Shown here: in pieces, positions 34,680 through 45,989 of the stretch
How the letters are laid out: every line of letters starts with the position of its first letter
Position numbering within the stretch: position 1 is the stretch's first letter
Origin: a virus
IMG/VR virus record: IMGVR_UViG_3300034284_000578
Span: 44,577-108,576 of that record
Reading direction: 5' to 3' (one strand)
Length of the DNA: 64,000 nucleotides
Position numbers and translations under genes: made by a program
Notes under the pieces: model-generated
Database searches by the model: none
Told to the model about the DNA's origin: nothing
The model's input: the letters and a program-made list of their open reading frames with translations, nothing else

Positions 34680-36506
34680 ATGGCAATTCAAATTAGCCCA
34701 GGCGTAAATGTAACAGAAAAAGATGTCACACTTTTGGTGCCAGCAATCGCCACCACACCAGCAGGTATGATTGGCTTGTTCCAATGGGGACCAGGCAACG
34801 AACCAGTGACAATTACGAGCGAAAAAGAACTTTCAGAAGTATTTTATAAGCCAGCAAAAGCATCAGGCGTAATGACCGATGCCACCAAATACAACAGGTG
34901 GTGGTGGTCTGCTGCCAATTTCTTGTCTTACGGTAACAATATTAAAATTGTAAGATTTATTAACGATAGTGCTGGTTCATTTACCGCAACCTCAGGAACT
35001 GCTGCGGTTGCAGGACATAATCTTTGCGGATTGACATCATTTAGAGCATATACCCCAGTAGTTGGAAATGGATTCTGGGGAGCAAAGTATCCAGGCGAAC
35101 TCGGCAACAGCATCAAGGTAGTTGTTTTAGATTACTATGCTGCTGAAACATATGATGCCGATACAGACGGAAACGCCAATCAATATATCGACTACATTGG
35201 TAATTTTGATGGTTTGCCAGGAACATCCCCTTGGGCAGAAACAGTAACCGGAGCAGAAATTAAAGACGAGATTCACGTTCTTGTAATTGATGCTGATGGT
35301 AAAATTTCTGGTACTGCTGGTACAATTCTTGAAAAATTTGCATACCTTTCAAAGGCATCAAACGCAGTAAATCAAAACGGAACAACTAATTATTATAAAG
35401 ATGTTATTAACAATGAATCAAAGTATGTTTGGTCATTATATCATTTAGATAACGCAAGTGCTGCAAATAATTCATCAAATGTAAGTGCATTTGGTGCTGT
35501 AAGTTCCACTGGTACTACACCGTGGGGAACCGCCGTAACAACTACTACATCCGCCTTTAAAGTAGTTAAAACTGGTGAAAATCTTGTTGTTACTATGCTC
35601 TACGGTGGATTGGTTGGAAATACACCAAATGATAACGATATCGCAGAAGCATTTAACACATACATGGGTGATCCAGAAATTATCGATGTTTCAATGTTCA
35701 TTACCGGACCACTTGGTAAAACAGCGGCTTATCGTGTAACAGAAATAGCAGAAACAAGAAAAGATGTTGTGGCATTCGTGTCCCCAACACCAACAAATGG
35801 TTTCAATCAAACACCAAGTGCATATTTGAATGACATCATCACATTTAGAACAAATGGAGATTCCACTTCATACGGTGTAGCCGATACTGGTTACAAATTG
35901 CAATACGACAATTATAACGACGAATATGTTTATATTCCTCTAAATGCAGATATTGCAGGATTGTGCGCTCGTACAGACACAACAAACGATCCTTGGTTCT
36001 CTCCAGCCGGATTAAACCGTGGTGGAATTAACAGAGTAATCAAACTTCCTTTCAATCCAAATCAAGCACAACGCGATGATTTGTATAAGATTGGAATGAA
36101 TCCTGTAGTTTCATTCCCCGGAATTGGTCCTGTTCTTTACGGAGACAAGACTCTCTTAAGTAGACCATCTGCCTTTGACAGAATCAATGTTCGCAGATTG
36201 TTCATAATTCTTGAGAAATCAATTGCAACTGCCGCCAAGTTCCAACTCTTTGAATTCAACGATGAGTTTACAAGAGCACAATTTGTAAACTTGGTAACTC
36301 CATTCCTCAGAAATGTTCTTGGAAGAAGAGGTATCACCGATTTCCGTGTAGTTTGTGATGAAACAAACAATACAGCACAAGTAATCGACTCAAACAACTT
36401 TGTAGCAGATATCTATATCAAACCAAACAAATCAATCAACTTCATTCAACTCAACTTCATTGCTACACCAACTGGTTTGAGCTTTGAAGAGGTCGTTGGA
36501 GCCTAA
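34680..36506 (+). CDS. 18: Tail sheath protein gp18
   Basis: 608 residues (T4 659). The N-terminus ISPGVNVTEKDVT followed by AGMIGLFQWGPGNEPVTI is diagnostic of contractile sheath proteins, and the conserved C-terminal part includes FLRNVLGRRGITDFRVVCDETNN and ADIYIKPNKSINFIQLNF. It polymerises around the gp19 tube and contracts during injection. The ATG has GAAGGAG upstream. The 89-nt leader contains TATAGAAATA, which is not a clean late promoter, so the transcript may come from farther upstream. Confidence 0.95.
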   Translation: MAIQISPGVNVTEKDVTLLVPAIATTPAGMIGLFQWGPGNEPVTITSEKELSEVFYKPAKASGVMTDATKYNRWWWSAANFLSYGNNIKIVRFINDSAGSFTATSGTAAVAGHNLCGLTSFRAYTPVVGNGFWGAKYPGELGNSIKVVVLDYYAAETYDADTDGNANQYIDYIGNFDGLPGTSPWAETVTGAEIKDEIHVLVIDADGKISGTAGTILEKFAYLSKASNAVNQNGTTNYYKDVINNESKYVWSLYHLDNASAANNSSNVSAFGAVSSTGTTPWGTAVTTTTSAFKVVKTGENLVVTMLYGGLVGNTPNDNDIAEAFNTYMGDPEIIDVSMFITGPLGKTAAYRVTEIAETRKDVVAFVSPTPTNGFNQTPSAYLNDIITFRTNGDSTSYGVADTGYKLQYDNYNDEYVYIPLNADIAGLCARTDTTNDPWFSPAGLNRGGINRVIKLPFNPNQAQRDDLYKIGMNPVVSFPGIGPVLYGDKTLLSRPSAFDRINVRRLFIILEKSIATAAKFQLFEFNDEFTRAQFVNLVTPFLRNVLGRRGITDFRVVCDETNNTAQVIDSNNFVADIYIKPNKSINFIQLNFIATPTGLSFEEVVGA

Positions 36507-36524
36507 TCGAAGAGGGAGCAATAA

Positions 36525-37070
36525 ATGGACATTAGCAAGTTTACATCTAAATTCGATGGCGGAGCAAGATCAAATCTGTTCCAATTCAGAGTCAGTAATT
36601 TACCATCAGGCATTCCTGCTTTCAATGCGGACGATCAAATCATCCACGTTAAAAGCATTCAATTGCCAGAAACAACAGTTGGTGAAATTCCTGTAAATCA
36701 CATGGGAAGAATTTACAAATTCCCAGGCGATAGAGTTTATAATGACGTATCACTTACTATCTTGAGTGATGGTAGTGATATGCGCGTAAGACATTTCTTC
36801 GAAGCATGGAACCATGTTTGGAATCGTCATTTTGCAAACGTAGGATTGTTGCCAAATGCTGAAAACTTGAACGCTGTAGTTGAATTAATTCAATTGGATC
36901 GCGGTCACAACCCAATCAGAACATATAAACTACAAAAAGCATGGTGCAGTGATGTCTCTGCCGTAGATTTGTCACACGACAACAATGACGCTTTAGTTGA
37001 ATTTACAGTAACATTGAAGTACCACTTCTTCGAAGTAGACGGTAAGAACGGTCTTCACTTAAGACGTTAA
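36525..37070 (+). CDS. 19: Tail tube protein gp19
   Basis: 181 residues (T4 163). Conserved blocks include NLFQFRVSNLP, IHVKSIQLPETTVGEIPVNHMGR, YKFPGDRVYNDVSLTIL and RHFFEAWNHVWNRH, which define the T4 tail tube family. The protein stacks in rings to form the DNA conduit inside the gp18 sheath. SD GAGGGAG, spacing 6, supports the start. It lies directly between sheath and portal, as in T4. The last codons contain a small palindrome, GTCTTCACTTAAGAC, at 37051-37065. Confidence 0.95.
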   Translation: MDISKFTSKFDGGARSNLFQFRVSNLPSGIPAFNADDQIIHVKSIQLPETTVGEIPVNHMGRIYKFPGDRVYNDVSLTILSDGSDMRVRHFFEAWNHVWNRHFANVGLLPNAENLNAVVELIQLDRGHNPIRTYKLQKAWCSDVSAVDLSHDNNDALVEFTVTLKYHFFEVDGKNGLHLRR

Positions 37071-37101
37071 CCTACCTATATACTCGTGAAGGAGTTTTAT
37101 A

Positions 37102-38739
37102 ATGGCATTTGATATATTCGGTTTTACTTTTGGTAGAACTAAAGAGCAACAACAATCTGTTCCCTCAGTAATTCCCCCGGCTATGGACGATGGCGCATCC
37201 TTCGTCCAAGCCGGTGGTTTTCAAGGTTGGTATGTAGATCTTGATGGTACTGTCAAGTCTGATGTAGATTTGGTTAAAAAGTATCGTGAAATGAGTCTCC
37301 ATGCTGAAGTTGAAATGGGCATAGAAGATATTGTGAATGAAGTAATAACAGAAGATGCTTCCGGTACATTTATTAAATTAAATATAGACAAAGTAGATTC
37401 TAGTATTATTCCAGAAGAAGTTAAAAAAGTTTTATATGACGAATTTAAACACATTTTATTCTTATTGGATTTCAATAGAAAGTGTTATGAGATTGTTCGT
37501 CGCTGGTATATTGATGGTAGGTTATATTACCACATTATTCTGGAAGATGATCCACGACAAGGAATAAAAGAAGTACGACAAGTAGATCCTCTTAGAATTA
37601 AAAAAGTAAGAGAAATAAAGAAAAAACAAAAAGTAAATGGTGTTGATGTTATTGATGGTGTAGAAGAATATTATTTGTACACCGTTCAAGAAAGATTTAA
37701 CATGTATGATACCACTCAAGGTATCAAGTTATCTCCCGACTCCATTAATTACTGCCACTCAGGTTTATTTGATTACGGCACAAAAAGAGTAGTAAGTTAT
37801 CTTCATAAAGCAATTAAACCATTGAACCAATTAAGAATGGTCGAAGATGCTACCGTAATTTATCGTTGGTCAAGAGCACCAGAGCGTAGAATATTCTATA
37901 TCGACGTTGGTTCTTTGCCAAAAAATAAAGCAGAGCAGTATCTGAGAGACATCATGTTGCGTTATCGCAATAAGATTACATACGATGCCGGTACTGGCGA
38001 AATCCGCGACGACAGAAAACACTTGAGTATGTTGGAAGATTATTGGCTCCCCCGTCGTGAAGGTGGTAAGGGAACAGAAATTCAAACACTATCCGGTGGT
38101 CAAAATCTAGGCGAAATGGAAGATGTAAAATACTTCCAAAAGAAACTGTTTAGAAGTTTGAATATACCCATGTCACGTTTAGAAGCGGACAATGGATTTA
38201 ACATGGGTAGAGCAGCAGATATTAGCAGAGACGAATTAAAGTTTGCTAAATTTATTTCTCGCCTTCGCTCTCGGTTCTCAGAGTTGTTCTTAAACTTTAT
38301 GAGAACTCAATTGATTGCAAAAGGAATAGTAGATATTGACGAATGGAATAAGATTTGTCAATATATCCGATTTGACTATTCTACAGATTCAATGTTCTTA
38401 GAATCTAAGCAATCTGAAGTGCTAAAAGACAGAATGGCAATTTTGAGAGAAGTTTCCGATTATTCTGGTAAGTATTTCTCGGAAGAATGGATTAGAAAGA
38501 ATATTCTTCATCAAACAGACGAAGACATTCAATTGATTGATTCTCAAATTGAACAAGAAAAAATGATACAAGAACAAAAGCAAATGGAAGAACAAATGCG
38601 CGCCGAGCAATTGGCAGCACAAACTATGGGTGTTCCTGGCGGTGCGCCTGGAGCGGGAGCATCCGCACCAAGTCAACCAACAGCAGTTGCACCACAGCAA
38701 TCAACGGGAGTAGATTACGATGCCAGCAGCCTTTTATGA
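37102..38739 (+). CDS. 20: Portal protein gp20
   Basis: 545 residues (T4 524). Recognisable portal blocks: AGGFQGWYVDLDGTVKSDVDLVKKYREMS, ASGTFIKLNID, DFNRKCYEIVRRWYIDGRLYYH, YRWSRAPERRIFYIDVGSLPKNKAEQYLRDIM and FRSLNIPMSRLEADNGFNMGRA. It forms the dodecameric ring at the head vertex, nucleates head assembly and is the packaging channel. SD GAAGGAG is present. The C-terminal 60 residues are Gln-rich, then Pro/Ala/Gly-rich. They overlap the next gene by 20 nt. Confidence 0.95.
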   Translation: MAFDIFGFTFGRTKEQQQSVPSVIPPAMDDGASFVQAGGFQGWYVDLDGTVKSDVDLVKKYREMSLHAEVEMGIEDIVNEVITEDASGTFIKLNIDKVDSSIIPEEVKKVLYDEFKHILFLLDFNRKCYEIVRRWYIDGRLYYHIILEDDPRQGIKEVRQVDPLRIKKVREIKKKQKVNGVDVIDGVEEYYLYTVQERFNMYDTTQGIKLSPDSINYCHSGLFDYGTKRVVSYLHKAIKPLNQLRMVEDATVIYRWSRAPERRIFYIDVGSLPKNKAEQYLRDIMLRYRNKITYDAGTGEIRDDRKHLSMLEDYWLPRREGGKGTEIQTLSGGQNLGEMEDVKYFQKKLFRSLNIPMSRLEADNGFNMGRAADISRDELKFAKFISRLRSRFSELFLNFMRTQLIAKGIVDIDEWNKICQYIRFDYSTDSMFLESKQSEVLKDRMAILREVSDYSGKYFSEEWIRKNILHQTDEDIQLIDSQIEQEKMIQEQKQMEEQMRAEQLAAQTMGVPGGAPGAGASAPSQPTAVAPQQSTGVDYDASSLL

Positions 38740-39319
38740 ATTTAATATAGAACAAGGTTCTGATTTTATAACATCAGTAAAGGCGATGAAACCCGGCGGT
38801 GGTATTTTTCGCTTTATTCCAAAAGCAAATCAAACTGTTTGGACTGGTACAACTTTAAACATTGATGTGCCTGAAGAAATTAAGTTGTTTAAATCAACAG
38901 AATCTGCTGCATTCGGTTGGATGAAAGGTATACCATCTAGTACATTTTTGACGGTAAGAAGTAAAGTAAAAGATAATAAAGGTGTTTTACAAATACAAGG
39001 AACTAGAGTCTATACATTTAATGGTTCTACCAAAAGAATAACAACTACTAGTTTTAGTCCAGAGGCCTCAACCAAAGAACTAATAGAATTTACATTAGTT
39101 CCAGACAATACCGAATATAATTTAACTATGAGAATGCCTGCTGGCACAACCTGTGGAACAAATGGTAACGCACCAACAGGAACAACATGTTACAGTGGAA
39201 AATATCTTTATGATATTGAACTGGAATATAAAATTGGAGATGAGGGAGAAACACCAACCCCATTTGTTATTCGTTTATTGCAAGGAAGAATGACATTTAA
39301 TCCTAACGTAACCACGTAA
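38720..39319 (+). CDS. Hypothetical virion-associated protein (199 aa)
   Basis: Starts inside the last 20 nt of the portal gene and ends 1 nt before the next ATG. The N-terminus has YEFNIEQGSDF, a motif that recurs in a similar form (YDLHAEFGVDY) at the start of the 126-residue protein at 60034. Both are beta-rich. Small proteins of this kind often sit beside fibre or head-decoration proteins in T4-like marine phages. Here the partner would be the collagen-like protein encoded just downstream. No catalytic motif or membrane segment. Function unknown; a chaperone or adaptor for the neighbouring protein is the best guess. Confidence 0.6.
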   Translation: MPAAFYEFNIEQGSDFITSVKAMKPGGGIFRFIPKANQTVWTGTTLNIDVPEEIKLFKSTESAAFGWMKGIPSSTFLTVRSKVKDNKGVLQIQGTRVYTFNGSTKRITTTSFSPEASTKELIEFTLVPDNTEYNLTMRMPAGTTCGTNGNAPTGTTCYSGKYLYDIELEYKIGDEGETPTPFVIRLLQGRMTFNPNVTT

Positions 39320-39320
39320 A

Positions 39321-41639
39321 ATGGCAACTAATTTTAAGATATACGTCAGTAATTTTCCACAAAAGACCGCCTATAGAAGAGGCGCAACTATAGACGTATA
39401 CCAAATAAATAAAATCATTTACACCCAAGCACAAGAAATAGATAATTTAAACTTAGCAGGTGAATTGTATGAAGATGCTATAGGAATTAAAGGAGATTCT
39501 TGTACTAGTGGTTTAATTGGTTGCGATGAAGCATTCGTAGCACCAAATCCAAATGAATGTAGTGGTGGAGAAAGAGGACCAGCAGGACCAGCAGGTCCAC
39601 AAGGACCTGCCGGCCCAACAGGACCCCAAGGACCTGCTGGTGGTGGTGCTAGAATATTTTGCGGTTATCTTCAAGGACCACCAGCACCACCGGCTGGAGA
39701 AATTTCAATTGAATGTTTAAAAAGCGCAACTGGTTATGTTGTAAATAAAAATGGTGCAGCACTTGGTGGTACAAATCCATTTAGTCCCGGTTCTGGATCT
39801 AATTTAAATAATTTTCAACATAACTTTGGTACTACTGGTGGAACTCAGTATGTCATAGGGACTAATGGTAGTCCAGTACAAGGAAATAATTGTAGTAGCC
39901 CTTCTCCCGCACAAGATAGATTAGATGAATTTTTTGATCCACCAAAATATATTCACACTCCGGTATTTAAAGGTTCAAATGTTAATGAAACTTGTTATTC
40001 ATCAACTCAATGGACATTTGGTGAATATTTAAACGCATTTGGTCAAGGATCAGCAGAACTTGGTAGTGGTTTGAGTAATTTTTGTCGAAATGGGGCAAAT
40101 GCAGCAAACAATAGTGCATCTGGATTAATATTCGTCCCAACACAATCAATATACGGTGGTGGTAACGCTACTAGAATGGAAGATTGGTGGGAAATATTAA
40201 AGGGAGCAGATGGTAACGGTGGTAATGGACTATATGACTCATTAGTAGACAATAATCCAGATTGTGGTCCAGAAGGACCATCATCATCACCACCAATAGC
40301 AGATCAGGGTGGTGTATTAAATAGTCAATGCACTGAAACCGGTGGAACTCCTCCTTCTTCTACACCATTAGAGGGAAATGACAATCCCTGCAATGGTGGA
40401 TGCAATAATCCTATTGCAAATTGTTCAGAGTTAACAGATGGTGATATTTTTATCGACGCAACTAACGGAGTAATGTATTTCTACTCAGGGGGAGCGTGGT
40501 CAAGTTCCGGTGTCCCTTTAGGGGGTGAGTCTGCTTGCGATGGACAAGCAGACGGAGGACCAGATTTTACATCAGCAGATGAGTGCCCACAAATAACTTG
40601 TTTTTGCCCACCGTGTGAAGAATGTCCAGATCCATGTCCAGATCCATGCACCGGATGCACCAGTGGTTGTATAACAAATCAATGCTGTCCAGATGGTGAA
40701 CCTAGTTTAATACTTTGCGGTCCGCCAAATACAGGGGGTTGTCCACCTGGACAATGCCCGAGACCAGATGGATGCGGTTCGTGCGGAAGTTGTGATGGAA
40801 GCACCAATCAATTCAATAGTGCTATGGTATTTCCAGATGAAATGATTACAGAAAATGCTAGTGTTTTAAATACACTACTAAACACTTTAAATGCAAGTAA
40901 TCTTGACTATTATGTTTCTGGAACTATGGCACTGGAAGCATACTTAAATGGAAGTGGATTCCCTGGCAAACAAAGAATGGGTGATTTTGATTTTGTTATT
41001 GATAGAAAAGATCTTAAAACATTTAATAATTTAGTTCAAGATAATTTTTATTTAGATATTATTACTGTAGAGGCACCATTCATGTCAAGAGATGATGCAA
41101 TGCCTCAGTTGTCCTTGATAAGTAAAACTAATAATTACGCTCCTTATTTTGATCCCATAACTATACCTGTTATTTTATCGGGTTCTGAAGAAATATGGTC
41201 AGGAGTAACTATTCCTAAACCAAGTGAATTTGGACAAAAAAGTTTTAAAACTATAAATTATGGAGGAAAAAGAAACTTATCATTTAAGTGTATTCCTCTA
41301 TACTATCCTATATTACAAAAAGTAAGAGCTGGCCGTCCAAAAGATATAATAGACTTAAAGGTTTTATATTTTGCTGGTTTAATAACTGAAGATGTTTTAT
41401 CTGAATTTACTCCAACTGATTTGGAAAAATACAACGAAATAGTATCTTACTTTGGAGATGGTTCTAATGCTGCATTTTTTGCAAGAAAAAACTACACTAT
41501 TGATCAATTACAAAATTTGGCTAATAATTACAATAATTTTAAATATGCACCAGCATTTAAAAAGAAATGGACATGGGTTCCAGCATATGGTGGATGGGTA
41601 GACCCAGAGGACATAATAACGCCCGGTTCCGGTTCTTAA
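39321..41639 (+). CDS. Collagen-like, Cys-rich protein with nucleotidyltransferase-like C-terminal domain
   Basis: 772 residues in three visible parts. Residues 83-108 are a collagen-like run of about eight Gly-X-Y triplets with mainly GPA and GPQ. Residues 422-491 hold 17 cysteines in 70 residues. From about 505 to the end is a domain that resembles MNT/AbiEii-type nucleotidyltransferases: S533-G534-T535-x-A-L, then R552-M-G-D555-F-D557-F with the paired acidic residues of that fold. A basic patch K667-x-R669...R672-P-K674-D675-x-x-D678-L follows. No kinase or polymerase motif is seen. The gene lies between the portal and the scaffold genes, so a head or virion location is likely. Enzymatic activity is inference; the domain may be a structural relic. 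Confidence 0.6.
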   Translation: MATNFKIYVSNFPQKTAYRRGATIDVYQINKIIYTQAQEIDNLNLAGELYEDAIGIKGDSCTSGLIGCDEAFVAPNPNECSGGERGPAGPAGPQGPAGPTGPQGPAGGGARIFCGYLQGPPAPPAGEISIECLKSATGYVVNKNGAALGGTNPFSPGSGSNLNNFQHNFGTTGGTQYVIGTNGSPVQGNNCSSPSPAQDRLDEFFDPPKYIHTPVFKGSNVNETCYSSTQWTFGEYLNAFGQGSAELGSGLSNFCRNGANAANNSASGLIFVPTQSIYGGGNATRMEDWWEILKGADGNGGNGLYDSLVDNNPDCGPEGPSSSPPIADQGGVLNSQCTETGGTPPSSTPLEGNDNPCNGGCNNPIANCSELTDGDIFIDATNGVMYFYSGGAWSSSGVPLGGESACDGQADGGPDFTSADECPQITCFCPPCEECPDPCPDPCTGCTSGCITNQCCPDGEPSLILCGPPNTGGCPPGQCPRPDGCGSCGSCDGSTNQFNSAMVFPDEMITENASVLNTLLNTLNASNLDYYVSGTMALEAYLNGSGFPGKQRMGDFDFVIDRKDLKTFNNLVQDNFYLDIITVEAPFMSRDDAMPQLSLISKTNNYAPYFDPITIPVILSGSEEIWSGVTIPKPSEFGQKSFKTINYGGKRNLSFKCIPLYYPILQKVRAGRPKDIIDLKVLYFAGLITEDVLSEFTPTDLEKYNEIVSYFGDGSNAAFFARKNYTIDQLQNLANNYNNFKYAPAFKKKWTWVPAYGGWVDPEDIITPGSGS

Positions 41640-41656
41640 ACTTAAATAAACTAAAG

Positions 41657-41664
41657 TATAAATA
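41657..41664 (+). promoter_or_regulatory. Late promoter TATAAATA (scaffold/protease genes)
   Basis: Exact T4-type late promoter in the gap after the collagen-like gene, 20 nt before the next ATG. Gives a late transcript for the head assembly genes. Confidence 0.85.
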
Positions 41665-41684
41665 ATGAAAAGAGGATTATACCG

Positions 41685-41960
41685 ATGTCTACAGAAAAAA
41701 TTATAGATTCTTTATTTGATAACAACTTGGAGCAATTCCGCAAGCAAGTCCATGCTGCTTTATTTGTAAAAACCGGAGAATATATGAACTCCGCAAAACA
41801 AGTAGTCGCTGGCGCCATGATGAATCCTCCAGAAGAAGTACAAGAGGAAAAAAAGAAACTATCTAAAGAGCAATTAGCAGCAGTAAGAGCACCACATGAT
41901 AAAATTACCCGTGGAGACATTATTGCTCTTGCTCAAAAGAACGCAAAGAAAAAGGGGTAA
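41685..41960 (+). CDS. Prohead core protein, gp67/gp68-position (91 aa)
   Basis: 91 residues, highly charged and helical: an N-terminal SLFDNNLEQFRKQVHAALF, a middle rich in Glu and Lys (EEVQEEKKKLSKEQ), and a basic C-terminus. It occupies the place of T4 genes 67/68 between portal gene 20 and protease gene 21. Those genes encode small inner-core proteins of the prohead, which are cleaved by gp21 during maturation. The role is assigned from position and composition rather than from clear sequence identity. SD AAAGAGGA precedes the ATG, and an exact TATAAATA promoter lies 20 nt upstream. Confidence 0.65.
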   Translation: MSTEKIIDSLFDNNLEQFRKQVHAALFVKTGEYMNSAKQVVAGAMMNPPEEVQEEKKKLSKEQLAAVRAPHDKITRGDIIALAQKNAKKKG

Positions 41961-41965
41961 TATAG

Positions 41966-42613
41966 ATGAAACTTATTACTGAAACAAGACAACAAGACAT
42001 TCAATATGTTTCTGAAGCCGCAGAGGGTGGTAAGAAGTCTTACTTCATTCGTGGTGTTTTCGCAGAGTCCAATAAAGTAAACAAGAATCAACGATTTTAC
42101 GAAGGACCAGTCATGGAGATGGCTGTACAAACATACAATGATACCTTTGTAAAAAATAGTCGCGCTTTGGGTGAACTTGGACATCCAGAAGGACCAACTG
42201 TTAATTTAGAAAGAGTATGCCACATGATCAAAGATCTTCATGTGGAGGGTAGTCAAGTAATGGGTAATGCAAAGATCATGGACACCCCATATGGTAGAAT
42301 TGTACAAAACCTTATTGATGAAGGTGCTAAACTTGGAGTGTCTACCCGTGGTATGGGTTCATTGGCTGAGCGCAATGGAGTCAATTATGTGCAAAAAGAC
42401 TTCATGCTTGCCGCTGTCGATGTAGTTGCAGATCCCTCTGCACCAAACGCATTCGTAGACGGCATCATGGAAGGTAAAGAATGGGTTTGGGACAATGGTG
42501 TTTTCAAACCAACAATCATTGAGAATTACAAAAAACAAATTGAAAAAGCAGGATCAAGAAACTTGGAAGAAGCCAAATTGAAAGTATTCCGCGATTTCTT
42601 ATCTAAATTGTGA
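41966..42613 (+). CDS. 21: Prohead protease gp21
   Basis: 215 residues (T4 212). The family pattern is clear: RGVFAESNKVNKNQRFYE, then ALGELGHPEGPTVNLERVCH, with His73 as catalytic candidate, and LGVSTRGMGSL with Ser126 as nucleophile candidate. This serine protease matures the prohead by cleaving core and capsid proteins after (I/L)xE-type sites, and then digests itself. The gene starts 5 nt after the preceding stop with AAAGGGG as ribosome site. The C-terminal 40 residues are charged and probably form the part removed by self-cleavage. Confidence 0.95.
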   Translation: MKLITETRQQDIQYVSEAAEGGKKSYFIRGVFAESNKVNKNQRFYEGPVMEMAVQTYNDTFVKNSRALGELGHPEGPTVNLERVCHMIKDLHVEGSQVMGNAKIMDTPYGRIVQNLIDEGAKLGVSTRGMGSLAERNGVNYVQKDFMLAAVDVVADPSAPNAFVDGIMEGKEWVWDNGVFKPTIIENYKKQIEKAGSRNLEEAKLKVFRDFLSKL

Positions 42614-42617
42614 AATA

Positions 42618-42625
42618 TATAAATA
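42618..42625 (+). promoter_or_regulatory. Late promoter TATAAATA (gp22)
   Basis: Exact late promoter in the 42-nt gap between gp21 and gp22. AAGGAG follows at 42641-42646 before the ATG at 42656. Confidence 0.85.
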
Positions 42626-42655
42626 ACTGAGCGACAAATCAAGGAGATTTAACAA

Positions 42656-43870
42656 ATGGACCCCAAGAAAATTGCAGAAGAAATCGTAAAAGATTTATTC
42701 GATACATATGAACTCGTCGAAGAAAAAGAAGAAAAGGACGAGGAAGAAGAAGGCGAAGAAGAAGAAGAAGCCGGTGAGGAAGAAGAAGGCGAAGAAGAAG
42801 CCGGTGAGGAAGAAGAAGGCGAAGAAGAAGGTGAAGAAGAGGCAGAAGACAAGGCTCCAGTTGCTAAAGCAGTTGGTAATGCCATGAAGGGTTCTGCTAC
42901 TACATCTGCTGCCGCTTCAATCTCCCTTAAAGGTCAATTACCACAACCAACAAAAGGTTCTGGACATGTCCACGATGCCTTGGGTGGTGGTGTAAAGGAT
43001 GCACATGGCGGTGGTGAGCAAATCATCCAACCAACAGGTGGAAATCCCGGTGCATTGGCTGCATCTCTCAACATGAAGCCATCATTCACTTCTCCACAAG
43101 CACCACAAATGACCAGTGAGCAATTAGCCTCTGATATTACAGCAATCTTTGGTTCACAAGAACTATCTGAAGATTTTGTAAAGAATGCTGCTTCAATTTA
43201 TGAAGCCGCAGTTGCTTCAAAGGTTGAAACAATTGCAGAAGCATTAGTCGAACAATTTGAAGAAAAGTTGGTAGAAGAAGTAGAAACTGTAAAGTCTGCT
43301 TTGGTAGAACAACTTGATAATTATTTGGCTTATGTTGTCCAAGAATGGGCAAAAGAAAATGCAGTTGCCATTGAAAATGGTTTAAGAACAGAAATTGCAG
43401 AAGACTTCATCAATGGTTTGAAGAATCTTTTTGCGGAATCTTATGTTGAAATTCCAGAAGAAAAAGTAAATCTGTTTGATGAACTTTCGGAAGCGGTCGA
43501 AACTCTTGAAGGTAGAATAAACGAAGAGATTGAAAAGAACGTAGTTCTCAATCAAGAAATTAGTTTACTAACCGCTCAAAGAGTATTTGCTGAAGAAACA
43601 AGAGGATTGACTGTTCTTCAAGCAGAAAAAGCAAGAGAGATTGCAGAAAATCTCGAATACTCTGGAGAAGAAGATTTCCGCAGTAAAGTAAAGACCTTGG
43701 TTGAAGGTGTTGTTTCTGGAGCCAAAAAGGTTGCACCAAAGAATGTTCAAAAGGTAAATGAACAAATTACACTTTTGGAACAAGCAACTGAAGATGAGCC
43801 AGAGCAAGAAACACTCTCTCCACTCATGGAACTTTATTCAAACACAATTAACAGAACACTAAAATCTTAA
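42656..43870 (+). CDS. 22: Prohead scaffold core protein gp22
   Basis: 404 residues (T4 269). The C-terminal half follows T4 gp22: YVVQEWAKENAVAIENGL, IAEDFINGLKNLFAESYVEIPEE, then a long coiled coil from VNLFDELSEAVETLE to SLLTAQRVFAEETRGL. The protein forms the inner scaffold of the prohead and is degraded by gp21. Unlike T4, an extreme acidic stretch, almost only Glu with Gly and Ala, occupies residues 20-65 and is followed by a Gly/Pro-rich linker; together they account for much of the extra length. A strong net negative charge could help clear the cleaved scaffold from the head or keep DNA out during assembly; this is inference. Confidence 0.9.
   Translation: MDPKKIAEEIVKDLFDTYELVEEKEEKDEEEEGEEEEEAGEEEEGEEEAGEEEEGEEEGEEEAEDKAPVAKAVGNAMKGSATTSAAASISLKGQLPQPTKGSGHVHDALGGGVKDAHGGGEQIIQPTGGNPGALAASLNMKPSFTSPQAPQMTSEQLASDITAIFGSQELSEDFVKNAASIYEAAVASKVETIAEALVEQFEEKLVEEVETVKSALVEQLDNYLAYVVQEWAKENAVAIENGLRTEIAEDFINGLKNLFAESYVEIPEEKVNLFDELSEAVETLEGRINEEIEKNVVLNQEISLLTAQRVFAEETRGLTVLQAEKAREIAENLEYSGEEDFRSKVKTLVEGVVSGAKKVAPKNVQKVNEQITLLEQATEDEPEQETLSPLMELYSNTINRTLKS
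42770..42829 (+). repeat. Two 30-bp tandem copies in the acidic region of gp22
   Basis: Two adjacent 30-bp units (42770-42799, 42800-42829) encode AGEEEEGEEE twice. The surrounding GAA/GAG runs continue the same character. A likely product of replication slippage, in frame. Confidence 0.85.
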
Positions 43871-43887
43871 TTCAAAAATTGAGAAAT

Positions 43888-43895
43888 TATAAATA
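43888..43895 (+). promoter_or_regulatory. Late promoter TATAAATA (gp23)
   Basis: Exact late promoter in the gap between gp22 and gp23, 35 nt before the ATG. AAAGGAG follows at 43915-43921. Confidence 0.9.
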
Positions 43896-43930
43896 AACTC
43901 AGACAAAAAGGTTTAAAGGAGCAAAGAAAA

Positions 43931-45394
43931 ATGGACCCTAATCGTCAAATGATCACAGAATCTGCCCGCAAAAAGTGGCAACCAATCCTTGAGCACAAGG
44001 CATTGCCAGAAATCAAGGACAGTTATAAAAAGACTGTAACAACAATCCTCTTGGAGAACCAAGAGCGCGCACTCCGCGAATCATACCAAGGTATTGCCGG
44101 TACAGGACTCGGTAACATTGGTGGGTTTGAAGCCGGTGCAACCTCAACAACTGGTACTGGTATCGATTCATTCGATCCAATCATGATCAGTTTGGTTCGT
44201 CGCGCTATGCCAAATTTGATGGCTTACGACATCGCTGGTGTTCAACCAATGAACGGCCCAACCGGCTTGATCTTCGCAATGAAGACAAAGTATCAAAACG
44301 CTGGTACAGGAACAATTGGTGCCCGCGCTGGTAATGCCAGTGAAGCACTGTTCAAGGAAGCCAACACAAGTTGGTCCGGTGAAACTGGTGCTGCTGGTGA
44401 CATGGGAGATATCTTCCAAGATGACGCCGGTTCAACCGATGGACGCTTCGAAGCCGGTCGTGGATTTGCCACATCTAAGGGTGAAAAACTCGGAGATGGT
44501 ACAAATAACTTTAACGAAATGTCTTTCACAATCGAAAAGACAGCCGTTACAGCCAAGACTCGCGCCCTCAAGGCAGAGTACACAACAGAACTCGCTCAAG
44601 ACCTCAAGGCCGTTCACGGACTTGACGCTGAGACAGAGTTGGCTAACATCCTCTCAACCGAAATCATGTTTGAAATCAACCGCGAGTTGGTTCGTCAAAT
44701 CTATGATGTCGCTAAGTTGGGTTGCCAACAAGCCGACCTCGCCGGTAAGGCTTCAGGTGGTGGTTTGAATGGTGCCGCAGGTGGTGGTACATATAACCTC
44801 GAACTCGACTCCGATGGTCGTTGGAGTGCTGAAAAGTTCCGTGGTTTGACCTTCCAAATCGAGCGCGAGTGCAACGTAGTAGGTGCTGAGACTCGTCGTG
44901 GTAAGGGTAACTTTATCATCACAAGTCCAGACGTTGCTGCTGCCCTCAGTATGAGTGGTTTGCTCGACTTCTCTCCAGCCTTCAGTGGTGCTCTTAACAC
45001 AGACGTTAATGGCAACACCTTCGCTGGTACACTCCACGGTGGACGTATCAAGGTTTACATTGATCCATATTCAATGCCAACCCACACAGAAACCTTCTCA
45101 CCAATCAATTTCGTATGCGTAGGATATAAGGGAACAAGTCCATACGACGCTGGTCTCTTCTACTGCCCATACGTTCCATTGCAAATGGTAAGAGCCGTTG
45201 ATACAGGTACATTCCAACCAAAGATTGGTTTCAAGACCCGTTATGGTATGGTAAGTAACCCATACGTTCTCAATGCAAGCAGTCTCCCAGACGCTGAAAC
45301 ATTGACACGTAGACGTAATCAATACTACCGCATCTTCCGCGTAGATAACCTACACGGTAACGACGCCACATACAACCCAACAACCGCTAACTAA
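43931..45394 (+). CDS. 23: Major capsid protein gp23
   Basis: 487 residues (T4 521). Typical gp23 blocks include FDPIMISLVRRAMPNLMAYDI, GVQPMNGPTGLIFAMKTKY, LKAEYTTELAQDLKAVHGLDAETELANILSTEI, EINRELVRQIYDVA and NFVCVGYKGTSPYDAGLFYCPYVPL. It forms the hexamers of the head shell. The N-terminal propeptide is usually removed by gp21 at an (I/L)xE site; ITE, ILE and LPE occur at 8-10, 19-21 and 25-27, but I cannot say which is used. Codon use stands apart from all neighbours: C-ending codons and CGC/CGT arginine are preferred and GC rises to about half in sampled stretches. Late promoter and AAAGGAG upstream; terminator downstream. Confidence 0.97.
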   Translation: MDPNRQMITESARKKWQPILEHKALPEIKDSYKKTVTTILLENQERALRESYQGIAGTGLGNIGGFEAGATSTTGTGIDSFDPIMISLVRRAMPNLMAYDIAGVQPMNGPTGLIFAMKTKYQNAGTGTIGARAGNASEALFKEANTSWSGETGAAGDMGDIFQDDAGSTDGRFEAGRGFATSKGEKLGDGTNNFNEMSFTIEKTAVTAKTRALKAEYTTELAQDLKAVHGLDAETELANILSTEIMFEINRELVRQIYDVAKLGCQQADLAGKASGGGLNGAAGGGTYNLELDSDGRWSAEKFRGLTFQIERECNVVGAETRRGKGNFIITSPDVAAALSMSGLLDFSPAFSGALNTDVNGNTFAGTLHGGRIKVYIDPYSMPTHTETFSPINFVCVGYKGTSPYDAGLFYCPYVPLQMVRAVDTGTFQPKIGFKTRYGMVSNPYVLNASSLPDAETLTRRRNQYYRIFRVDNLHGNDATYNPTTAN

Positions 45395-45419
45395 TATTAG
45401 CGCGTAAACCAACGAGTAG

Positions 45420-45449
45420 AGGGTTCCGAAAGGAACCCTTTATTCTTTT
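45420..45449 (+). terminator. Intrinsic terminator after gp23
   Basis: AGGGTTCC (45420-45427), a GAAA tetraloop, GGAACCCT (45432-45439), then a T-rich tail TTATTCTTTT. A perfect 8-bp stem with a GNRA loop and U-rich tract: the strongest terminator in the window, placed right behind the most highly expressed structural gene. Confidence 0.95.
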
Positions 45450-45461
45450 ATAGATACTATT

Positions 45462-45989
45462 ATGAGCAATCTAATTACAAACGCAATACAAAGACAGCCA
45501 AAGTCGATCAACCCAATGCAGTTGAACGAATATAAAATGGTATTGCATAGAACTCCTCATATAGTTTATTTCTGTCAGTCAATCAACCTACCCGGTATCC
45601 AATCTAGTCCTATATCGCAGCCTAGTCCCTTTGCCACCGATATAAAGAGGACTCCAGGCAAGGTAACGCATGATGATTTAAATGTTAAATTCATTGTAAA
45701 TGAAGATATGTCTAATTGGCTGGAATTGTATAATTGGTTGAGAACGATAACTCCAATCGATACATTCAATAATCAAGTTCAAGAAACACAAAGATTTTCT
45801 GATATTTCAATAATAGTAATGAACAGCAAGTCTTTAGGTTTATTGCATTTCACATATAGAGATTGTTTTCCTTTGGCAATATCTGGATTAGATCTAGACA
45901 GTACTGTTAGTGATATTAATCCTGCGATTGCTGGAGTAACATTTGCATACAGCGGGTTTACAGTAGAAACCCTCAGACAGAACATTTAA
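45462..45989 (+). CDS. Tail-tube-like / tail completion protein
   Basis: 175 residues. The pattern LHRTPHIVYFCQSINLPGIQ, then QPSPFATDIKRTPGKV, LNVKFIVNEDMSNWLELYNWLR and near the end FAYSGFTVETL resembles the tail-tube fold family (gp19, and the tube-like baseplate proteins gp48/gp54). In marine T4-like phages a protein at this place, between gene 23 and uvsY, is often called gp3, tail completion; I cannot confirm that by sequence. No Shine-Dalgarno is visible. TATAGATA at 45449-45456, one base off the late element, lies only 5 nt before the ATG, so a nearly leaderless late transcript is possible. The gp23 terminator separates it from upstream transcription. Confidence 0.6.
   Translation: MSNLITNAIQRQPKSINPMQLNEYKMVLHRTPHIVYFCQSINLPGIQSSPISQPSPFATDIKRTPGKVTHDDLNVKFIVNEDMSNWLELYNWLRTITPIDTFNNQVQETQRFSDISIIVMNSKSLGLLHFTYRDCFPLAISGLDLDSTVSDINPAIAGVTFAYSGFTVETLRQNI

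Follow-up and report, generated by a model that had tools for sequence, protein, structure and literature searches.

Introduction

Nucleotidyltransferases (NTases) related to the abortive-infection toxin AbiEii carry the motifs hG[G/S]x9-13DhD (x15 in AbiEii), an arginine in motif II, K..R and +DxxD, and mutations in each of the AbiEii motifs abolish toxicity (PMC3985639). In MenT1 the key residues are R37, T39, D41xD43, K137, R146, D149 and D152; some activity is left in the T39A mutant (PMC11375011). In the MntA/HepT pair, MntA is reported to be an MNT-domain enzyme that AMP-modifies a protein, and this NTase is the antitoxin that stands beside a HEPN toxin (PMC7641770). The uncharacterised bacterial NTases of DUF6036 (PF19502) and DUF2204 (PF09970) share GxxA...DxD followed by K-x4-RPKDxxDL. 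In polymorphic toxin systems, C-terminal domains recombine behind a constant N-terminal part (PMC3482391).

How does the present locus compare with these systems? The window, a stretch of 64,000 nucleotides that belongs to a 108.6-kb virus record, contains a single intact gene in which a collagen-like protein ends in an NTase-fold domain (table 1). The domain has the DUF6036/DUF2204 motifs in the same order, and it is to these NTases that its profile similarity is best; the members that we read are, however, bacterial and without a collagen part, and they are only 16–26% identical to the domain, which carries extra sequence ahead of D-x-D and forms part of a collagen-like phage protein. MenT1 and AbiEii (DUF1814) toxins provide the best fold match and have equivalents of the R, D-x-D, K, R and +DxxD residues, but the domain, attached as it is to a putative structural protein, has neither an AbiEii profile match nor an antitoxin gene. 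Unlike MntA, it has no HEPN partner that we could see. With collagen-like phage fibre proteins it shares a Gly-X-Y segment and tail-fibre PHROG matches, which fall within residues ~46–163, yet the gene lies between portal and prohead protease and its product terminates in an NTase-fold cassette. The resemblance to polymorphic toxins is an analogy only: here the context is that of phage structural genes and no immunity gene was seen.

Table 1. Features of the locus, in window coordinates.
Feature	Position	Strand	Basis or remark
Collagen-like protein, 772 aa, with C-terminal NTase-fold domain	39321..41639	+	open reading frame and neighbourhood
N-terminal segment, residues 1–55	39321..39485	+	alignment and profile search
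Collagen-like Gly-X-Y segment, residues ~83–107	39567..39641	+	sequence; matches to collagen-bearing tail-fibre PHROGs
Cys-rich spacer, residues 431–500, 14 Cys	40611..40820	+	
NTase-fold domain, residues 505–715	40833..41465	+	motifs, profiles, hhalign, guided model
C-terminal extension, residues 716–772	41466..41636	+	relatives: five copies only
199-aa gene, phrog_1084 (weak)	38720..39319	+	between portal and collagen-like gene
Cassette block replaced in L008	40634..41642	.	~96% identity on left side, 94% on right
Block near-identical to L001	40822..41830	.	~97–100% identity inside mostly 60–88% flanks

Results

Gene organization

The genes around the collagen-like gene follow the T4-type order: sheath, tube, portal, 199-aa gene, collagen-like gene, prohead-like, protease, scaffold-like, major capsid. 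Upstream is a T4-type portal (phrog_213, E 8e-194), then the 199-aa gene; downstream come a small prohead-like protein (weak match to phrog_1064, E 0.003), a gp21-like protease and a scaffold-like gene and, further on, the major capsid protein (phrog_138, E 2e-140). Neighbours without a profile match of their own were named from gene order and from similarity to annotated relatives. Among named phages the portal is most similar to those of Kyanoviridae, for example Pelagibacter phage Mosig (~53% identity), and in three named relatives the portal–protease interval holds only small genes.

A first-pass annotation, made from the letters alone, had placed the gene in a head-gene cluster between portal and scaffold and had read its product as an NTase-like domain fused to a collagen-like, Cys-rich N-terminal part. 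The position and the fusion are confirmed, and the NTase fold is well supported. It had also remarked that no antitoxin-like partner lies beside the gene, and indeed neither an AbiEi- or MenA-type antitoxin nor a HEPN or other candidate is evident among its neighbours, which are the portal-adjacent gene and the prohead genes.

Residues 1–55 are common to all variants of the collagen-like protein (window, L004, L008 and L010), and this segment is probably an anchor. The position of the gene, the collagen repeats and the fibre-like region together suggest a virion protein.

Residues of the active site

Which residues of an NTase site does the domain retain? The motifs proposed at the first pass (SGTxAL, an R-x-x-D-x-D element and R(P)KDxxDL) are found at the residues then given, as S533-G-T-M-A-L538, R552-M-G-D555-F-D557-F and R672-P-K-D-I-I-D678-L679. 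The site comprises G534-T535, R552, D555-F-D557, K667, R672 and K674-D675-x-x-D678. Four motifs of the same order and spacing arose in 9 out of 200,000 shuffles of the domain; the motif set is more than chance.

The hG[G/S]...D-h-D feature is present as G534-T535 x19 D555-F-D557, in register with the NTase columns, but it deviates in having Thr where the motif has Gly or Ser and a spacing of 19 from G-T to D-x-D instead of 9–15. Motifs III and IV are represented by K667 x4 R672 and by K674-D675-I-I-D678. In terms of MenT1 the equivalents are R552, (M553), D555xD557, K667, R672, D675 and D678, Met553 sitting where the R-x-T-x-D-x-D loop of DUF1814 has Ser or Thr (T39 of MenT1). NTases have a third carboxylate on one of the later strands; the alignment gives no unambiguous candidate for it. 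All five known copies retain the motif residues within the stretches that their fragments cover, which is weak evidence because the copies are at least 95% identical. The domain appears to keep the residues that bind nucleotide and metal, and catalytic activity is on balance plausible. It may nevertheless be inactive, since M553 replaces T39, the distance between G-T and D-x-D is long and the third carboxylate is unclear.

Fold of the C-terminal domain

Is the domain an NTase? Searched with the domain, the curated libraries Pfam, PHROGs, NCBIfam and PADLOC and the sequences of the PDB returned chance matches only; in Pfam there was no match to DUF6036 at E <= 10 and none to AbiEii/DUF1814 (PF08843) above the curated cut-off. 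A tblastn search of phages and plasmids gave nothing real, its weak match in Mosig (E 4) lying elsewhere in that genome, and scans of viral sequences with pieces of the domain retrieved the same contigs again and no others. The sole match over 379 bacterial genomes, L160, was judged to be chance because its frame encodes no NTase-like protein.

The pattern KhxAxRPKDxxDL, which includes the third motif of the first-pass annotation, was then scanned as DNA through 85,000 bacterial and archaeal genomes. It yielded 32 in-frame open reading frames, 17 of which have G[GSAD]xA...DxD 82–105 residues upstream. Eight of these 17 were tested, and every one matched an NTase family of Pfam (DUF6036, DUF2204, NTP_transf_5 or AbiEii), although L105 did so only weakly (E 0.007). 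A profile built on the 17 matches the domain at E 4e-7, a value that is partly circular. Independent of the motifs is a profile of DUF6036 and AbiEii members sampled through Pfam from other genomes. Among 6,413 sequences, consisting of the domain, its reverse, 2,000 shuffles and 4,411 open reading frames of phage contigs, this profile ranked the domain first (E 0.001). So did a profile of the DUF6036 sample (E 0.009), while the AbiEii sample, applied to the same sequences, did not match it. When residues 19–198 of the domain were aligned by hhalign with the combined DUF6036 and AbiEii family, the probability was 55%, against at most 1.3% in 60 column shuffles, and GT, DxD and K..R.KDxxD all lined up.

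An AF2 model was guided by 18 NTase rows fetched with the pattern, of which 17 are bacterial and the other comes from a viral contig. It scored pLDDT 77 and pTM 0.77 but is not fully independent, since the homologous rows steered it. The five near-identical copies alone gave pLDDT 37, an unusable model. The seven best PDB matches of the guided model are chains of MenT1, TM1012 and JHP933 (prob 1.00). Next come CCA-adding enzyme, ANT(2'') and LnuA; LicD/FKRP structures are among the weaker matches.

We conclude that residues ~505–715 very probably adopt an NTase fold of the broad DUF6036/AbiEii-MenT kind. Of the checks suggested at the first pass, structure prediction, guided though it was by NTase rows, agreed with the proposed fold; in the HMM comparison the curated family models stayed silent and the sampled profile placed the domain first. 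The earlier label, 'MNT/AbiEii-type', is right in kind and too narrow as to AbiEii; the Pfam AbiEii model and the AbiEii-only profile find no match, and Met553 and the spacing of 19 depart from that family. Membership of DUF1814, or the name 'AbiEii toxin', is not supported. Pfam, PHROGs, NCBIfam and PADLOC all miss the domain, which thereby extends the NTases by a divergent group. Beyond the five copies no relatives of the C-terminal extension were found. On another viral contig (L193:3818-4345) lies the gene of an NTase whose motifs read GGFAMQAYG..DVD and KMVAGRPKDDHDL and whose protein has a further N-terminal part.

Replacement of the cassette

What stands at this place in close relatives? 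L008, a 94.8-kb record, is 96% identical to the window over 36001–40633 and 94% over 41643–45526, with unrelated DNA between. The window's block of 1,009 bp encodes the NTase domain together with the greater part of the Cys-rich spacer; that of L008, 1,218 bp, encodes another Cys-rich tail and includes a DUF6734 gene that overlaps it (PF20508, E 8e-38). The right border falls 3 bp past the stop codon. The N-terminal collagen-like part is present in L008 without the NTase domain, of which the whole L008 record has no copy, and the window's record has no match to DUF6734.

The DUF6734 arrangement, likewise lacking the NTase domain, recurs in L203, L204, L206 and L205 (whose DUF6734 is 70% identical); L203, L204 and L206 are probably one viral population, since their sequence statistics are identical. 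The DUF6734 genes that overlap the end of the collagen-like gene lie at L008:7538-8536, L203:5001-5999 and L205:4986-5993. In L010 the arrangement is a third one. The two cassettes occur together in none of the sampled contigs, a small-sample statement because some contigs are fragments and only five have the NTase domain. In L203, L204 and L206 the 199-aa and collagen-like genes are replaced together (window 38886–40633): identity to L203 is there ~70% where alignable, although the phages are otherwise ~96.5% identical. The exchange hotspot is therefore wider than the NTase cassette.

We conclude that the C-terminus of the collagen-like protein is an exchangeable cassette. This is the new result, and a more interesting one than the NTase reading itself; because the window and L008 are near-isogenic natural alleles, the cassette question is directly testable. 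The DUF6734 protein contains HIDGDVVF, reminiscent of the DxD of glycosyltransferases, and its gene might be an alternative modifying module, though part of the case for this is a DGD motif identified by eye.

Recent movement and variation

The NTase block has moved between phage lineages recently, since it is 97–100% identical between the window and L001, phages whose flanks are mostly 60–88% identical (table 1). The last bin of the block is 91% identical in L001, and L002 and L003 have the same right border.

Over 40812–41636 the five copies (window and L001–L004) differ at 15 sites, 14 of them nonsynonymous and none at codon position 3. By a rough estimate made by hand, 14 out of 15 is near the neutral expectation (P about 0.1); the absence of changes at position 3 has a probability of about 0.002 if all positions change equally. 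The pattern is unusual, but 15 changes are too small a number to establish positive selection or to decide the mechanism. The lack of variable sites at position 3 prompted us to consider a diversity-generating retroelement, which was rejected: the changes are not confined to adenine, and a local repeat search found no template repeat in 38000–43000.

Discussion

What might the cassette do? Our tentative preference, held with somewhat less than even confidence, is for a fibre-type protein with a swappable NTase-fold cassette that transfers nucleotides late in infection. In a structural protein of a T4-like phage the N-terminal segment would be followed by a collagen triple helix, then by a fibre-like region and the Cys-rich spacer, and the C-terminus would be an interchangeable cassette, here a domain akin to the DUF6036 and AbiEii/MenT enzymes, in related phages a different tail with the overlapping DUF6734 gene. 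If active, the domain would work inside the infected cell, because that is where NTPs are available, and its location in a head-gene operon suggests late synthesis. It would transfer a nucleotide to its own fibre or to a nearby component of virion or envelope. The fibre is perhaps the nearest substrate, since the module is fused to it in one allele and encoded by a separate overlapping gene in the other. Phages would exchange such modifying modules through recombination. If this is true, phages have a new way to arm or vary a part of the virion: an NTase-fold domain is fused to a collagen-like protein and exchanged, as a block, for another gene. A more elaborate version seems to us unlikely: the head operon of T4-like phages would be a hotspot that equips a collagen-like virion fibre with exchangeable modifying modules, the NTase domain or, in the other allele, a DUF6734 enzyme; each module would modify its own fibre, here by nucleotidylylation, and the choice of module would be under diversifying selection.

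Standing as it does at the C-terminus of a collagen-like, Cys-rich protein, the domain could instead be a pseudoenzyme, an NTase fold that serves as a receptor- or glycan-binding fibre tip, transfers no nucleotide and alters host recognition when swapped. Exchange between lineages, the predominance of nonsynonymous sites with none at position 3, the scarcity of NTPs outside cells and the want of an evident third carboxylate and loop Thr all fit such a tip. However, the domain has equivalents of all nucleotide-site residues found essential in DUF1814 work, receptor-binding fibres are not usually encoded in the portal–protease slot, the type B cassette has a separate gene besides the fibre tip, and the 15 changes, as noted, cannot carry a claim of positive selection. 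We regard the pseudoenzyme as doubtful. T4-like heads do deliver an enzyme, the ADP-ribosyltransferase Alt, and a domain whose nearest solved folds are MenT1, TM1012 and JHP933, and whose K..R.KDxxD is common to DUF1814, could be made late or delivered by the virion to modify host RNA or protein as the MenT or AbiEii toxins do. But the antitoxin-like partner and the AbiEii profile match are missing, the gene sits among structural genes, and fusion to 500 residues of collagen-like and Cys-rich protein is ill-suited to injection; we take a host-directed effector to be quite unlikely.

A further reading is that host surface glycans are modified, by LicD/FKRP-like chemistry or by sugar activation, so that superinfection is blocked; DUF6734 would then be the counterpart that resembles a glycosyltransferase. 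In related pelagimyophages, glycosyltransferases have been proposed to alter host LPS (PMC7029224), and both the LicD/FKRP fold matches and the DxD-like motif of DUF6734 lend this some colour. Yet motifs III and IV are of the DUF6036/AbiEii kind and not of LicD, such chemistry needs no fusion to a structural protein, and DUF6734 would be a glycosyltransferase by likeness of motif. We consider it very unlikely.

Other genes of the portal–protease slot

An NTase profile matched none of the other slot genes of related phages. Collagen-like proteins recur in the slot, since L087:214-1530 and L029:3160-4440, which lie there in other T4-like contigs, have strong Pfam Collagen matches. In two further T4-like contigs the slot is occupied by genes for periplasmic-type solute-binding proteins (L060:1881-2846 and L063:3956-4996), with matches to TctC (E 3e-37) and SBP_bac_3 (E 8e-15).
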